A model generated the notes under the pieces. That model worked only from the letters and a program-made list of their open reading frames with translations. It was not told the origin of the DNA and did no database searches. A stretch of DNA of 64,000 bases from a beta proteobacterium MWH-UniP1. GTDB lineage: Bacteria > Pseudomonadota > Gammaproteobacteria > Burkholderiales > Burkholderiaceae_A. The stretch spans positions 1,861,401 through 1,925,400 of the forward strand of contig CP143625.1 of NCBI GenBank assembly GCA_036362785.1, in the 5' to 3' direction. Position numbers and translations under genes: made by a program. Of the stretch, positions 463 to 59,600 are shown piece after piece (position 1 is the first letter of the stretch; each line of letters starts with the position of its first letter).

Positions 463-2055
463 TTAAAAACCGACCGCCATTCCGTCTCGCCGGTGGTCCG
501 ATCCCGATACATAGCCCTTTTGGTGATCCGCCGCATCAAGCCGTGCAATGCCCTGGGCGCTTCCAAAATCCAGGCTATCAGCGGGCATCACAGCGACCTG
601 GTGGCCCAATGCGCGCAGGCCATCCACCACGTCTTTTGGCATGTTGTGCTCGACCGTGAGATTGCCGTTGTCATCAATTCGCCAGCGGGGCGCGTCAGAA
701 GATGCCTGCGGGTTTAATTGCTCATCAACAAAGCGCATCACAAATTGCAGATGGCCCTGCGGCTGCATATTGCCGCCCATCACACCAAAGGCCATGACCG
801 GCTTGCCCGACTTGGTTAAAAAGGCCGGGATGATGGTGTGAAACGGCCGCTTGCCAGGTGCGACTTGATTCGGGTGGCCGGGCACAAGCGAGAACCCGCT
901 GCCGCGATTTTGAAACGCAATACCACCAGGGGCGACCACACCAGAACCGAAGCCTTTGAAATTGGACTGGATATACGAGACCATCATGCCCGATGCATCT
1001 GCTGCGCAGAGATAGACGGTTCCACCAGAATGGGGCTGGCCCGCACCGTAACGGTCGGCCTGATTCAAACTAATTAAGGCGGCGCGAGACTTTAGATAGT
1101 CCCGATCCAGGAGTGCCTTGGGATCAAACTTCATAAAGCGTGGGTCTGCCACATGGGCATGAACATCGGCAAATGCAAGGCGCATGGCCTCGATCTGCAA
1201 ATGAATACGCTGGGCTGAGTTTGCAGGATATTGCCGCGCATCCAGAATATCCAAAATGCCAAGTGCAATTTGTGCCGCCATGCCAGAACCATTGGGCGGA
1301 ATTTCTAACAAAGTGTATTCGCCGTAGTTGGATGCCAGTGGCGCCACCCAGTCGGCCTGATGGGCAGCAAAGTCTTCATGCGTCAACACGCCGCCGGTGC
1401 GTTTTGCAAAAGCCACCATGCGATCAGTGATGGCACCGCGATAAAACGCCTCGCCCTTGGTGGCGGCAATCTCAGCAAGCGTGTCGGCCTGGGCTTGAAA
1501 GCGCCATATCTCGCCCGCAGTCGGTGATTGGCCATTTTTCAAAAAAGAATCCGCAAACCCGGGCTGGCTAGACAACGTATCGCGTGCGGTTGCCCACTGG
1601 CGCGCAATCACTGGCGACACAGGAAAGCCATCTTTTGCGTAGCCAATTGCCGAACGAAACAATTGCTCAAAGGGCAGCTTGCCAAATCGCTGCGACAGAC
1701 TCACCCACGCAGAGACAACGCCCGGCACCGTCACACTGCCCCAACCAATTGGCGGCATCTTGTCTTGGCCCGCAAAAAACTCTGGTGTCCAGGCGGCCGG
1801 GGCGCGGCCAGATGCATTAAGCCCATGAATTTGATTTCCATCCCAGATGATGGCGAACGCATCGCCACCAATGCCGTTCATCGTCGGCTCAACCACCGTT
1901 AAGGTGATGGCAGCCGTCAAGGCGGCATCGACTGCGTTGCCCCCTTGCGCCAAGGCATTTAAGCCAGCTTGCGCTGCCAGTGGCTGAGAGGTGGAGACAA
2001 CATTTCTGGAAAAAAGCGGTGCACGTGCGCCGCCAAACGGAATCGGAAATTTCAT
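463..2055 (-). CDS. ggt: Gamma-glutamyltransferase family protein (cytosolic YwrD-like type)
   Basis: The 530-residue protein belongs to the gamma-glutamyltransferase/acylase Ntn-hydrolase family, which self-cleaves before a threonine and then transfers or hydrolyses gamma-glutamyl groups, for example from glutathione. Seen in the sequence: the N-terminal block GNAVDAALTAA and the NGIGGDAF motif (about 60-67), the large-subunit core, and SGGTVYLCAADASG, where Thr346 is the expected cleavage point and nucleophile. The downstream GGNMQPQGH block is also typical. I place the start at the ATG at 2053-2055; a longer reading from 2121 adds 22 residues with no family resemblance. No signal peptide is visible, so it is probably cytosolic, unlike periplasmic Ggt. 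It converges on tRNA-Pro. The substrate could also be another gamma-glutamyl or acyl amide. Confidence 0.9.
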   Translation of the reverse strand: MKFPIPFGGARAPLFSRNVVSTSQPLAAQAGLNALAQGGNAVDAALTAAITLTVVEPTMNGIGGDAFAIIWDGNQIHGLNASGRAPAAWTPEFFAGQDKMPPIGWGSVTVPGVVSAWVSLSQRFGKLPFEQLFRSAIGYAKDGFPVSPVIARQWATARDTLSSQPGFADSFLKNGQSPTAGEIWRFQAQADTLAEIAATKGEAFYRGAITDRMVAFAKRTGGVLTHEDFAAHQADWVAPLASNYGEYTLLEIPPNGSGMAAQIALGILDILDARQYPANSAQRIHLQIEAMRLAFADVHAHVADPRFMKFDPKALLDRDYLKSRAALISLNQADRYGAGQPHSGGTVYLCAADASGMMVSYIQSNFKGFGSGVVAPGGIAFQNRGSGFSLVPGHPNQVAPGKRPFHTIIPAFLTKSGKPVMAFGVMGGNMQPQGHLQFVMRFVDEQLNPQASSDAPRWRIDDNGNLTVEHNMPKDVVDGLRALGHQVAVMPADSLDFGSAQGIARLDAADHQKGYVSGSDHRRDGMAVGF

Positions 2056-2133
2056 GGGGGTTCGGGATCTAAATGAAAAAGCCTGGCTGTAGATGAGTTT
2101 AACGTTGGCCAATTTGATCACACCCGCCCTGTC

Positions 2134-3507
2134 GTGCCTTGCAGTAAAAACCCCGGCCAGAATCGGGTAGTCTTTAGGGGTGTTGAACTAACGGCCAGGC
2201 CTGATGCTGCCGGCCCCAATGCATTGAACGAGCTACCCCTGTGGACCCATCTCACCGCAATCGTGGTGTTGCTCTTGGTGTCCGGATTTTTCTCGATCTC
2301 TGAGACCAGCCTGATGGCGGTCAACCGGTATCGAATTCGCCACCTGGCGAGCCAGGGCAAAAGCGGGGCAAAGCGGGTGCTCGCCCTGCTCAACCAGACT
2401 GACCGGCTATTGGCCACGATCTTATTGGGCAATAACCTGGTCAACTCTGCGCTCACGGCCCTGGTCACGGCGCTTGCCATCCAATCCTTTGGCAACAATG
2501 ACAAGGTGCTGGCGATCGCGACAGGTGTGGTGGCCTTTGCCATCATTATCTTTGCTGAAATCACGCCCAAGATTGTTGGCGCCAGCCGGCCTGAGCCAAT
2601 CGCCATGGCCACCAGTTTTGTACTGGCACCCCTGGTGCGGGTGCTCTATCCGCTGGTCGTGGTGATCAACGGCATTGTTTCAAGTATTTTGAGAATCACA
2701 GGCCTGAAAAAAATTACTCAAGCCCCCTCGAATCAGGCCATGTCCCCGCAGGAGCTGCGCACTGCCATCTTAGAGTCAACACGACTCATTCCGGCAAAGC
2801 ATCGCAGCATCATGCTCAATCTGTTTGATATCGAAGATCTAACGGTTGACGATGTCATGATCCCGCGTAGCCGGATCGAGGCTCTTGATATCGAATCAGA
2901 CCCACAGGCACTGATGGACCAACTCGGCACCTGTTTCCATAACAAACTGCCTGTTTATGAGGGGGATATTCACAACATCATCGGCATTTTGCATGTCCGC
3001 AAGGCGGTCTCACTCATGTCCCGGGAAGACCTGACTCACGAGGCCATTCGAGACATATTGATTGACCCTTACTTTATTCCGAGCGGCACGCCTTTGTTCA
3101 CGCAAATGCAGTACTTTCAAGAAAACAAACAACGCATTGCCTTGGTCGTTGACGAGTACGGCGAGATCGAGGGCTTAGTCACGCTGGAAGACATCGTGGA
3201 AGAACTGGTCGGCGAGTTCACCACCAATGCGCCGGGTGCCCATGCCACAGGGCTGCAATGGGGCGACGACAACACCGTTGAGCTGGATGGCACGTCACCG
3301 ATTCGCGACATTAACCGTCAACTTGGGCTAGACCTACCCATGGAAGGGGCAAGAACGCTCAATGGGTTGTTGCTTGAAACGCTTGAAGATCTGCCTGATG
3401 CCCACGTGTCGGTCAAGATTGCAGATGTCCCTATCGAAATTTTGCAAACACAGGGCCGACTCATCCGCCGAGTAAGACTGACTCGGCCCGAGACCACTGA
3501 GACATGA
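2134..3507 (+). CDS. CNNM/CBS-domain HlyC/CorC-family membrane protein (CorB-like)
   Basis: The 457-residue protein has the order CNNM transmembrane domain (about 35-185), paired CBS domains (about 215-345) and a C-terminal CorC/HlyC transporter-associated domain (about 370-450). Key blocks are SGFFSISETSLMAVNRYR in the first membrane region, LLGNNLVNSA, EITPKIVGA, VDDVMIPRS at the first CBS and VDEYGEIEGLVTLEDI at the second. The family is linked to magnesium/cobalt homeostasis or Na+-coupled Mg2+ export; the role here is inferred. The start is uncertain: 2134 is a GTG without a Shine-Dalgarno, and the family usually begins close to the TTG at 2224, just before LPLWTHL. The last 4 nt overlap the next gene. 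In related genomes the neighbouring position often carries pilB/pilC, which are absent here. Confidence 0.88.
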   Translation: MPCSKNPGQNRVVFRGVELTARPDAAGPNALNELPLWTHLTAIVVLLLVSGFFSISETSLMAVNRYRIRHLASQGKSGAKRVLALLNQTDRLLATILLGNNLVNSALTALVTALAIQSFGNNDKVLAIATGVVAFAIIIFAEITPKIVGASRPEPIAMATSFVLAPLVRVLYPLVVVINGIVSSILRITGLKKITQAPSNQAMSPQELRTAILESTRLIPAKHRSIMLNLFDIEDLTVDDVMIPRSRIEALDIESDPQALMDQLGTCFHNKLPVYEGDIHNIIGILHVRKAVSLMSREDLTHEAIRDILIDPYFIPSGTPLFTQMQYFQENKQRIALVVDEYGEIEGLVTLEDIVEELVGEFTTNAPGAHATGLQWGDDNTVELDGTSPIRDINRQLGLDLPMEGARTLNGLLLETLEDLPDAHVSVKIADVPIEILQTQGRLIRRVRLTRPETTET

Positions 3508-4235
3508 CACTGGGTCATCAAATCAGTGCTGCCTGCTCTGCCGCACTCATGGCGTTGCTGATTTTTCCAGTCGCCTCAAGGTTTGGCCAGCGGGGTGTCG
3601 ATCAATGGCTCTCAGAAGAGGAGCGCCAGCGATTGGGGTCAATCGGCCGGCCCTGGTGGGTCACCACAGCGATCGTTGGTGGACTGGTCTCATGGCAGGC
3701 TCTTTTTCCCCTATCAGCACAGGTGGGCGCCATGAGCCTGGCCTGGCTTACCCAGAACGCTTTTATCGGCAGCTACGCAGGAATCCTGATTGCATTGGCC
3801 AGAATCGATCTGGCCAGCCGCCTCTTGCCCGACCAGCTCACGGCAAGCTTGGTGCTTTCTGGTCTCATGTTTCACTGGCTATTTGACACTGGTCAGCTGA
3901 TGGCCGGCATTCAAGGGGCTGCTCTGGGCTACGGGCTTCTTTGGATTTTGGCCCGACTCTTTGAATGGCTAGGCGGCCGAGAGGCCATGGGCCGTGGTGA
4001 TTTTTTTATGGCAGCAGGCCTTGGCGCATGGCTGGGCTGGCAGGGTCTGCCCATGGTGCTCATGCTGGCAAGCCTGTCGGCCCTGCTGGCCGCATTGGTG
4101 GCGCGACTCGCCAGGCCGAATCCAGAAGATCCGGGTCTGGCCGACGCTGGGCCGGGCTTTTTAAAGCAAGAAATCGCCTTCGGGCCAGCCCTGGCGTTCG
4201 GGGGCATTGCCGCCTGGATACTGATTCATGGCTAA
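3504..4235 (+). CDS. Prepilin peptidase-like A24 protein lacking the methylase domain
   Basis: The 243-residue, multi-pass membrane protein resembles the catalytic half of PilD/type IV prepilin peptidases. It has the two aspartate motifs of the A24 aspartic protease fold: IDLASRLLPD (Asp102, Asp110) and GRGDFF (Asp166), plus the GAALGYGLLW and FGPALAFGG segments. Two things are odd. The N-terminal methyltransferase region with its cysteine pairs is missing, so the N-terminus (about 1-50) has only one hydrophobic segment and a soluble stretch. The usual GxGDxK reads GRGDFF, losing the lysine. The ATG overlaps the upstream stop by 4 nt, and the gene overlaps coaE by 8 nt, the usual pilD-coaE order. 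With no pilB or pilC beside it, it may be a remnant or may serve another pseudopilin system elsewhere. Confidence 0.75.
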   Translation: MTLGHQISAACSAALMALLIFPVASRFGQRGVDQWLSEEERQRLGSIGRPWWVTTAIVGGLVSWQALFPLSAQVGAMSLAWLTQNAFIGSYAGILIALARIDLASRLLPDQLTASLVLSGLMFHWLFDTGQLMAGIQGAALGYGLLWILARLFEWLGGREAMGRGDFFMAAGLGAWLGWQGLPMVLMLASLSALLAALVARLARPNPEDPGLADAGPGFLKQEIAFGPALAFGGIAAWILIHG

Positions 4236-57837: not shown

Positions 57838-58101
57838 TCAACCAAACAAATCATCTAAAGCTTTTTTGGCCGAATCCACATCACCACCGGATCGGCCACT
57901 AACCCGCACATACTCTTCAGCGATTCGATCCTCCCAATACGTGGTTGGATTCGGTGCGTTACAGAATCGGCGAAAGACCTCGTTGGGTACGGCCTGATAA
58001 GAACGCACAGTGCCTTCTTGAAAATGAAGATCAAGCTGTCGCGTGGACTCGTTGTAATCAGCGCGCACAATACGCCCGACAGAAAAAGTTTTGGTCACCA
58101 T
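57838..58101 (-). CDS. KTSC domain protein
   Basis: The 87-residue protein matches the KTSC domain (named after lysyl-tRNA synthetase C-terminal extensions): YNESTRQLDLHFQEGTVRSYQAVP, a short beta hairpin rich strand set, then FRRFCNAPNPTTYWEDRIAEEYVR. Such stand-alone domains are common and thought to bind nucleic acid, but this is not proven. The start ATG overlaps the end of the exonuclease/GIY-YIG gene by 7 nt, so coupling is likely. The C-terminal 15 residues are acidic and variable. Confidence 0.85.
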   Translation of the reverse strand: MVTKTFSVGRIVRADYNESTRQLDLHFQEGTVRSYQAVPNEVFRRFCNAPNPTTYWEDRIAEEYVRVSGRSGGDVDSAKKALDDLFG

Positions 58102-59600
58102 GTCTCATCCTGGTCTGCAATGGCTTCTTTTCGACGATCTGTACGGATCTGCACCACTGGCAAGGTCTTGATTGCCTTACGAAGAATTTTGTAGACATCA
58201 AGATCAAAGACCGGTTCCCCGGCGTCTAGTAACTCATGGACCTGCTCATCAGAAGATGCCGCGCCGAGATAACACCAGGACTCGATCAGGTGAATGACAC
58301 CCCCCTCTTTTAACCCGACCGGCCCGGGGTAGGGCCAGGTAGGGATTTTGTGCCGGGCCATCGCCATCAACAAACGCAGATGATGGGCCTGAGGCTTCTC
58401 CTTACCCACGCAGGCGCCCTTGCATTGCCTGAGTTGATAGCCAAAACAGGGGGATCCAGCCTTGATTTTTTCTAGACCCAGAAGTCCCTTGCAAAGCTTT
58501 TCTTCCTTAGCAAGTTCTGAAAGCATCTCTAAGGCATCACGCTGACTTCTAAAGACACCGAACAAATCCGGCTGGGCTCCCAGATTTAGATCCCGTGCCC
58601 AGACCAACTCAGGGGCTACCTGAGGCAAAGTGTCAAGCGGGGTGTCTGACACCTCGGATACGGGTACAACGTTAAGCTTGGTGTCAGGCACGGTGTCTGA
58701 CACCGTGTCGGATACCAACGGAGAAATACGCCAGGAGCAGAGCTCTTTATTTCGGCGAAGCCTGGTGTTGTGGCTGGGCAGAAGCGACTTCACCAAGGCA
58801 GACTCTTTTAACAGCGCCGAGATCTCACCAGCCGTCTCAATCCACTCCACCCGACGGACCTGAAGCGACAGACTCATTTCCTTGCCGCGCGAATGATCAG
58901 AAGAAAAGTGAGACATGACCCGTTTGCGCAGGTTGTTACTCTTTCCAACATAGAGTGGAAAGTCGTTGTCCCCATAAAAAATATAGACCCCATGGGACTC
59001 TGGCAGCTGATCAGGAAGATCTGGATCGAGCTGAGAAGGCAAAGCCGGCCGTGCCGAGAGCTTCTCGACTGCAGAGATCAGAGTTTCGGCATCCCACTCG
59101 CCCTGAAGCTTTTCCCAAAACTGGAAAATCAAATCAGCGTCCGCCAGAGCACGATGGCGTGCCGACTGAATCAAGCCATGGCGGGCGATCAATGCATCCA
59201 GATTGTGTCTGGCCTCGGCGGGATACAAGAGCCGAGAGAGTTTGACAGTGCACAAGACCCGAGCCCGGAAATCGATGCCCAGTCGTTTGAATTCGTTTTT
59301 GAGAAAACCGTAATCAAACCGGGCATTGTGGGCTACAAATAATTTACCGTTAACTCGCGCCAATACATCATGTGCCACGTCTTCAAAACGAGGTGCATCG
59401 GCCACCATCTCTTCAGTAATCCCTGTGAGACCCTGAATAAACTCTGGAATGCGGCACTCAGGGTTGATGAGTTGGCTATAACGCTCGACACCCGATTCTG
59501 TGACTTCGACAATGCCAATCTCGGTAATGCGATCTTTGGTGGCAGTGGCGCCCGTCGTCTCTAGATCAAGAAAGACCATGGGCTGAAAACCAGTACGCAT
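58095..59600 (-). CDS. Exonuclease-GIY-YIG endonuclease fusion (DnaQ-Cho type)
   Basis: The 501-residue protein joins a DnaQ-like 3'-5' exonuclease with a UvrC/Cho-type GIY-YIG nuclease. Residues 8-165 hold the DEDDh residues Asp12, Glu14 (LDLETTG), Asp96 (HNARFDYGF), His149 and Asp154. Residues 200-285 hold GVYIFYGDNDFPLYVGKSNNLRKRV. Between about 296 and 326 lies a repeat-rich linker with SDTVSDTVPDT and SEVSDTPLDT, absent from the fold and encoded by palindromic DNA. The rest has a Cys pair (CFGYQLRQCKGACVG), as in Cho. It may act in repair, in parallel to the UvrABC system, since uvrA lies nearby on the other strand. Confidence 0.9.
   Translation of the reverse strand: MRTGFQPMVFLDLETTGATATKDRITEIGIVEVTESGVERYSQLINPECRIPEFIQGLTGITEEMVADAPRFEDVAHDVLARVNGKLFVAHNARFDYGFLKNEFKRLGIDFRARVLCTVKLSRLLYPAEARHNLDALIARHGLIQSARHRALADADLIFQFWEKLQGEWDAETLISAVEKLSARPALPSQLDPDLPDQLPESHGVYIFYGDNDFPLYVGKSNNLRKRVMSHFSSDHSRGKEMSLSLQVRRVEWIETAGEISALLKESALVKSLLPSHNTRLRRNKELCSWRISPLVSDTVSDTVPDTKLNVVPVSEVSDTPLDTLPQVAPELVWARDLNLGAQPDLFGVFRSQRDALEMLSELAKEEKLCKGLLGLEKIKAGSPCFGYQLRQCKGACVGKEKPQAHHLRLLMAMARHKIPTWPYPGPVGLKEGGVIHLIESWCYLGAASSDEQVHELLDAGEPVFDLDVYKILRKAIKTLPVVQIRTDRRKEAIADQDETW
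58641..58704. repeat. Palindromic repeats inside the exonuclease/GIY-YIG gene
   Basis: The 13-bp near-palindrome GGTGTCTGACACC occurs identically at 58641-58653 and 58692-58704, 51 bp apart, with degenerate copies (GTGTCAGGCAC at 58681-58691, GTGTCGGATACC at 58704-58715, GTGTCAAGCG at 58630-58639). Because 51 is a multiple of three, the copies keep the frame and code for Val-Ser-Asp-Thr type units in the linker. Confidence 0.9.

Follow-up and report, generated by a model that had tools for sequence, protein, structure and literature searches.

Bacterial palindromic repeats are mostly regarded as extragenic and insertional, and a family with the majority of its copies inside genes is unusual for REPs. 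Rickettsia palindromic elements (RPEs) are much longer than the repeat described here, at about 100–150 nt, and belong to an unrelated host. Among the closest described systems are the REPs tagged GTAG or CGTC, which, in the available text of the source, adjoin convergent and unidirectional 3′ ends of genes; when intragenic, more than half of them form dimers or groups coding for 20–30 amino acids, their hosts including genes for repair, for replication and for tRNA pseudouridine synthases, and the CGTC REPs have no dedicated transposase (PMC3733652). For the REPs of SBW25, the portion of the source at hand reports that exact words exceed one-substitution words (1053 versus 1249 cumulative), and it describes REPINs as extragenic and RAYT-linked, with commonest spacings of 71 and 110 bp (PMC3116915). 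Uptake sequences, according to the excerpted account, show gene orientation bias, inverted pairs and a bias towards genome maintenance (PMC2346458).

The window analysed here is a 64-kb stretch (64,000 nucleotides) of the genome of the beta proteobacterium MWH-UniP1. A first-pass annotation had reported in it two identical 13-mers, 51 bp apart, forming a frame-keeping repeat with Ser-Asp-Thr-Val type units. Both statements hold: two exact copies of the palindrome GGTGTCTGACACC are found with 51 bp between their starts, and the array codes for VSDT/VPDT units (PLVSDTVSDTVPDTKLNVVPVSEVSDTPLDTLP) with the frame kept. The features of the locus are as follows.

58641–58653, + strand: first exact copy of GGTGTCTGACACC; the CDS, on the − strand, reads it as (E)VSDT
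58692–58704, + strand: second exact copy of GGTGTCTGACACC; the CDS, on the − strand, reads it as (T)VSDT
58680–58692, + strand: degenerate copy GGTGTCAGGCACG, with two mismatches on the − strand; it includes the GTGTCAGGCAC flank known from other sites
58704–58716, + strand: degenerate copy CGTGTCGGATACC, with three mismatches, at a 12-bp step from the second exact copy
58289–58301, + strand: two-mismatch match GGTGAATGACACC in the same gene, 340 bp from the exact copies; it may be a chance match
58625–58720, − strand: length-variable loop with the array, at about residues 295–323 of the nuclease, 9 to 22 residues longer than in five genus-mates
58095–59600, − strand: host gene of 501 amino acids, a DEDDh-type exonuclease (RNase_T) followed by GIY-YIG and a Cho/UvrC-like C-terminal part

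At least three degenerate copies had been claimed around the exact pair; within three mismatches, two adjoin it, and the third is the distant match that may be chance. Allowing up to two mismatches, the window contains seven strand-matches against 1.14 expected, each exact palindromic copy scoring on both strands, and none of 100 shuffles reaches seven. With up to three mismatches there are 28 matches against 15.5 expected (one shuffle in 100 as high), ten of them within the host nuclease gene. The commonest 10-mer of the window is the near-palindromic GGCCAAGGCC, with nine occurrences in all, either strand counted.

Pfam places RNase_T at residues 9–156 and GIY-YIG at residues 203–268 of the host protein, and the C-terminal part resembles the NCBIfam model for excinuclease Cho, though below its cut-off (best stretch 329–479, with 245 bits where 367 are required). 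Because GIY-YIG ends at residue 268, the array follows this domain and precedes the Cho-like part; it does not lie between the two nuclease domains, as had been thought. In an AlphaFold model of the nuclease (26 homologues), pLDDT is below 50 at residues 298–312 and 314–322, which are flanked by predicted strands at 288–294 and 328–334, and at the C-terminus (491–501). The array is thus predicted to occupy a turn, modelled with low confidence, that connects two strands. We refer to the genome itself (2.05 Mb) as G000, to six genus-mates as G001–G006 and to fetched loci by L-numbers. The length and sequence of the loop vary among the five genus-mates having the region (in G004 a contig end cuts the nuclease gene); four have no 13-mer there, and the G002 loop is the only one with the word (PPKVSGTVSDTLP). 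The proposal of a REP-like palindrome in a permissive linker is supported by this variation, by the low pLDDT and by the 93 genome-wide copies. Within the insertional class described below, the window array is unremarkable; it seems to have grown in 12-bp (four-codon) steps, and the nuclease would merely tolerate the insert.

The genome G000 contains 93 exact copies of GGTGTCTGACACC (43 on the + strand and 50 on the − strand), with none of the reversed control word, so the 13-mer is not confined to this locus. G002 has 38 exact copies, and none were found in the other five genus-mates, two of whose genomes are 78–79% complete. In a sample of 61 genomes of relatives, the own genome included, only G000 and G002 exceed one copy. 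More than two copies are found in an order-level sample of 399 genomes only in G000, G002 and G378, a genome of another family with seven, and in an overlapping phylum-level sample of 397 genomes only in G000. The word is therefore abundant in just two related species among about 770 genomes scanned. At five of its seven places in G378 (L289, L290 and L291), repeats in 12-bp steps stand alongside, for example GGTGTCTGACACCGTGTCTGACACC. The degenerate form GGTGNCNGNCACC occurs 124 times in G000 (control 11), 59 times in G002 (control 2) and 2–11 times in the five other genus-mates (controls 0–3). Among the 14 commonest 10- and 12-mers in small samples of G003, G004 and G005, no variant word like the 13-mer was found. 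Searches of viral_contigs with the A-then-T doublet (spacer 4–9) and with the 25-mer gave no matches that would point to phage carriage, and a survey of open-licence literature for the 13-mer or its 11-mer core with either centre, judged by titles and the starts of abstracts, returned no paper on such repeats.

Imperfect copies in G000 are scarce, though present. Up to two mismatches, there are 343 strand-matches, 186 of which are the exact copies on both strands, against 67 for the control. Among the matches listed at this threshold, 60 exact copies compare with eight forward places having one mismatch other than an A centre, and three of these eight are GGTGCCTGACACC. Sub-words outside exact sites reach just 1.1–1.2 times expectation in G000, and show a diffuse excess in G002 (9-mers at 2.0 times). 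Gradual build-up via partial words was considered and set aside on this weak excess in G000, the excess in G002 being stronger.

Gene calls were made with our own hexamer ORF predictor, using no annotation, and the predicted coding share is 91% of the 367 kb examined. Wholly inside a predicted CDS lie 55 of the 93 copies in G000, the other 38 being intergenic or crossing gene ends. All but two of the 55 share one phase, xxG GTG TCW GAC ACC, which reads xVSDT; the exceptions are in L014 (GVRH) and L059 (CQT). All 24 in-gene copies among the 38 of G002 read VSDT, which makes 77 of 79 for both species together. Five frame and orientation combinations are open and two of them give VSDT (0.4 expected), so the bias has a probability of 4e-19 per copy and of 3e-12 per host gene (35 of 37). 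In one orientation, one of the frames would bring a TGA, and the remaining frames would add Cys or Arg/His, and the bias may thus reflect removal of the other frames by selection. In the fetched CDSs, regions chosen for containing the word, 53 of 58 VSDT peptides are spelled by it exactly, and the five synonymous codings include one that is unreadable at the first codon of a gene. The wobble positions are therefore fixed at the DNA level: the constraint acts on DNA.

The in-gene copies of G000 fall in 37 predicted host genes, so that the 36 others speak against a special tie to this nuclease. Alignment to solved structures identifies MutS, TruA, ClpB, PheT and MurB among the hosts, and others are presumably RecG, PolA and DnaA; by our reading, the host proteins are mutually unrelated. 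The most exact copies among the 37, four in three separate clusters, are found in L013 1299–4202, which we take to be an aminopeptidase-N-like gene. The copies divide into 24 + and 34 − in one half and 19 + and 16 − in the other, and no clear signal of leading/lagging bias is seen.

We then compared lengths at the in-gene clusters, for 31 of which, out of 39, relatives (from G002, G003, G005 or others) were in hand; the other eight include two multi-copy clusters, and the search for relatives covered 27 of 29 segments. Length classes are MAFFT gaps over about ±20–25 residues, and some comparisons rest on one relative. All 13 multi-copy clusters with a relative are longer, by 7 to 32 residues, than at least one relative without the word. 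The MutS cluster is ten residues longer than in G005 and six shorter than in G002, which has copies of its own. The 18 single-copy clusters divide into 11 with a length difference of zero, four that are longer and three with a small or shared difference.

Zero difference against each relative in hand (one to three each): L014, L019 second gene, L023, L030, L043, L044, L045, L049, L050, L055, L058
Longer: L013 third site, L019 first gene, L031 (+40 residues, uncertain because of a low-complexity alignment), L048
Small or shared difference: L013 first site, L037, L040

Were the 13 multi-copy clusters spread at random over the 28 clear cases, 17 of which are longer, all 13 would be longer with a probability of 6e-5. 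Having no length change, the 11 singlets are not insertions. Compared with solved structures, TruA and ClpB show no gap at the site, PheT has no insertion (it is two residues shorter) and MutS has one; MurB, near the site, is three residues longer than the best solved chain and equal to three genus-mates. In the singlets without length change, such as those of TruA and ClpB, the word took the place of native codons. Over 12 genes of the replacing type, relatives differ from the word at a mean of 6.5 of 13 positions (32 comparisons) against a flank divergence of 32%, a mean that takes in guaA (L040, +1/+2 residues) and L044, whose G002 match is a paralogue (36% identity). No insertion model accounts for the replacing singlets, which may reflect a signal in the DNA itself, under drive or selection.

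The second species allows turnover to be followed. Of the 33 clusters in G002, seven are no more than 100 bp from the position predicted for a G000 cluster, a lower bound, as 15 of the 33 have an alignable flank among the G000 stretches compared. We take the seven shared places to be the thiD-like 3′ end, the exonuclease/GIY-YIG gene, guaA, mutS, the L042 and L024 sites and the aminopeptidase-N-like gene; flank identity between G000 and G002 at such places is 70–82%. In guaA, a 25-bp element stands at the same site in opposite orientation (L040 about 2981–3005; L206 about 2535–2559), a contrast also readable as five differences in 25 bp. For 14 insertion host genes, a relative either shows the word exactly (G002, in three of the genes) or has nothing closer than 3–6 mismatches in about 360 nt, which is the same range as in random segments. 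The pattern is therefore one of gain or loss, not of visible decay. In a quartet count, the grouping of G000 with G002 against G003 with G005 is backed by 83 sites, compared with 50 and 49 for the alternatives; the count covers these four genomes and leaves out L044 and genes missing a relative in any of the three others. By this tally of sites, the distribution is compatible with a single gain in G000/G002.

Outside genes, there are 19 intergenic clusters (four crossing a predicted gene end), nine between convergent genes, nine between tandem genes and one between divergent genes. The 174 background gaps comprise 23 convergent, 117 tandem and 34 divergent ones, and the convergent excess (9/19 versus 23/174) has p = 0.0009. 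This siting fits that of REPs, yet 55 of the 93 copies are intragenic. The densest intergenic cluster, in L017 540–671 (G000:C1:301040–301171), packs five exact copies into about 130 bp, with convergent predicted genes on its two sides. The core of the family is GGTGTCWGACACC, often with GTGCCTGACACC directly 3′, which gives the 12-bp step. Among 31 close pairs (spacer up to 20 bp), 20 have an A-centre copy and then a T-centre copy, one has the reverse order and ten run the same way; stem-loop capacity and frequent inverted dimers, traits of the GTAG/CGTC REPs, are thus both found in this 13-bp palindrome. We write the hairpin doublet as GGTGTCAGACACC-n8-GGTGTCTGACACC. Spacers of in-gene doublets are 2, 5 or 8 bp only, and those of intergenic doublets are 4–9 and 15–18 bp. 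By eye, the spacer sequences look mutually unrelated, which would not be expected of a copied 34-bp unit. As regards the doublet as a replicative unit with conserved ends, all 13 multi-copy clusters that have a relative are insertions, but the spacers look unrelated. In DNA folding of six loci or strands picked by hand, L025 forms a perfect 25-bp stem (z = −9.6), L042, L021 and L052 give z values of −6.6, −6.6 and −5.8, and the window array gives −3.3 (+ strand) and −2.1 (− strand). No consensus resembling a GTAG/CGTC tag at the hairpin foot is found in the 16 flanking bases on each side of the 93 and 38 copies; downstream of the word, the bases seen most often are GTGC (G000) and TTGC (G002).

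A cognate RAYT had also been envisaged. G000 has one gene resembling a Y1_Tnp/REP-associated transposase (L060 3136–3837, − strand), some 9 kb beyond the window site and preceded by a presumably aroB-like gene. PF01797 has one match in each of six of the seven genus genomes, and four of these six have zero 13-mers. With the REP_Tyr_transpos model, whose cut-off is 80 bits, the protein reaches 44, and the RAYT-like proteins read SESHW or SEAHW at the presumed HxH site, the place where we would expect that motif. No 13-mer occurs in the 150–160 bp on either side of the RAYT-like genes at the six genus loci, and the closest exact copy lies at a distance of about 9 kb (G000) or 11 kb (G002). The flanks at these six loci (L060, L142–L146) carry repeats of their own, GGGTCAGAC upstream in three, GTCTGACCC downstream in five and ATCTGACCC in the sixth, which have GTCAGAC in common with the 13-mer. 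As far as testable, this gene is rejected as the cognate RAYT of the 13-mer: it is single-copy, has GTCTGACCC-type flanks with no flanking word, and is present in zero-copy genus-mates. It may be a domesticated transposase.

How does the family compare with the known systems? With the GTAG/CGTC REPs, as far as the source describes them, it shares the short palindrome, the occurrence in clusters and as inverted dimers, the siting of intergenic copies by convergent and unidirectional 3′ ends, hosts in repair, replication and pseudouridine synthesis and a patchy spread over species, and with the CGTC type the missing transposase; unlike them, it has no tag, a one-base centre, mostly intragenic copies, a nearly single frame and replacing singlets. 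The likeness to REPINs, within the part of the source at hand, lies in inverted hairpin doublets, ends that are better conserved than the spacer and the dominance of exact copies (PMC3116915), whereas the 13-mer doublets have spacers of 4–9 bp (a few of 2 or 15–18 bp) that look mutually unrelated, lack a cognate RAYT and are mostly intragenic. RPEs, in the available account, are likewise in-frame palindromes in unrelated genes (PMC3733652). Their trait of in-frame insertion in conserved genes is found here (+7 to +32 residues; MutS versus solved structures). No replacing class is known to us among RPEs. DUS/USS, so far as the excerpts report, resemble the family in the exact word within genes, the inverted pairs between genes, the orientation bias and, for DUS, the CTG core, and differ from it in that the 13-mer has far fewer copies, is palindromic, and comes with clear insertions and tandem arrays, any uptake role being putative (PMC3630211; PMC2346458). 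HIP1, one of the highly iterated palindromes, is similarly an over-represented palindrome, presumed to form in situ through mutational bias; it has 8 bp, compared with the 13 bp, some 90 copies and insertions found here (PMC4390886, available part).

We consider it fairly probable that GGTGTCTGACACC represents a narrowly distributed palindrome family behaving like intragenic REPs or REPINs, without a GTAG/CGTC tag or cognate transposase. The family is genome-wide, shows net insertion of multi-copy clusters, a single frame, hairpin capacity, a 3′-end bias, few decayed copies and shared sites. Inverted doublets and 12-bp tandem arrays would form hairpins, such hairpin units would enter near gene 3′ ends and in permissive protein loops, and they may spread by hairpin copying, through a transposase that works in trans or that has been lost in the meantime. 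Against a REP reading stand the 11 of 18 singlets without length change, the missing tag and cognate transposase, the seemingly unrelated spacers and the more than half of copies that are intragenic; the family works like REPs yet lacks both their tag and a RAYT flanked by the repeat. That the resident RAYT-like protein recognizes GTCWGAC hairpins and spreads the family as classical REPINs appears improbable: the gene lies about 9 kb from the window site, its GGGTCAGAC/GTCTGACCC flanks share GTCAGAC with the word and inverted doublets occur, but it is single-copy in six of seven genus genomes, four of them with zero words, and the low bit score, the SESHW/SEAHW reading and the 9–11 kb to the nearest word all count against it. 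Selection on the protein for VSDT as a modification or binding motif, with the DNA word as a by-product, would account for the 77 of 79 in-gene copies reading VSDT; we judge it very unlikely in view of the 38 G000 copies outside or across gene ends, the only five synonymous codings in 58 and the unrelated hosts. Chance or an assembly artefact is rejected as scarcely conceivable, given the reversed control at zero, the 38 copies in a second genome and the seven of 33 clusters at orthologous places.

A weightier rival, although in our view still rather unlikely, is that the exact 13-mer is a DNA signal under drive or selection, either uptake-signal-like or the site of a dimeric binding or modifying protein, with native sequence drawn onto the word wherever the protein permits VSDT and the doublets being secondary. 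It would explain the 11 singlets at native positions without length change (TruA and ClpB gapless, PheT without insertion), the 6.5 of 13 positions at which relatives of 12 genes differ from the word against 32% in the flanks, the exact word in 53 of 58 VSDT peptides and the doubled 9-mers outside exact sites in G002; in-frame doublet insertions are not expected from it, the sub-words of G000 stay at 1.1–1.2 times expectation, and the 18 near-words (up to three mismatches) outside the host gene compare with 15.5 expected for the whole window. We know of no palindromic uptake word. ComEC is present, and is found in six of the seven genus genomes, but it discriminates nothing because genus-mates without the word have it as well. 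The gene orientation bias, inverted pairs and genome-maintenance bias recall those of uptake sequences in the accessible account (PMC2346458), and the word contains CTG, the core of all DUS dialects; uptake words run to hundreds to thousands of copies, and these dialects number about 1500–3800 in the part of the source at hand, compared with 93 and 38 exact copies here (PMC3630211). Two modes for one word, in which a DNA-level signal (uptake, binding or copying machinery) replaces coding sequence in place, 13 bases at once and in one frame, and in addition enters as hairpin doublets, are possible, and we put this forward tentatively.

The first observation was real, and part of a genome-wide family larger than first seen; as a whole it is partly confirmed, and its interpretation partly supported. 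The unusual parts of the family are its single reading frame and its replacing singlets, which by analogy may resemble the presumed accumulation of uptake sequences or highly iterated palindromes. The contrast with the usual repeats lies in a repeat that is mostly in genes, in one frame, with fixed wobble bases and with conserved proteins, ClpB, TruA and PheT among them, as hosts. Five genus-mates without an exact copy provide a natural control, and gain, loss and the direction of change are therefore directly testable. If the replacement mode is true, a DNA-level drive would be rewriting proteins. By its numbers inside genes and its nearly constant frame, the 13-mer looks like parasitic or signalling DNA that proteins had to absorb.
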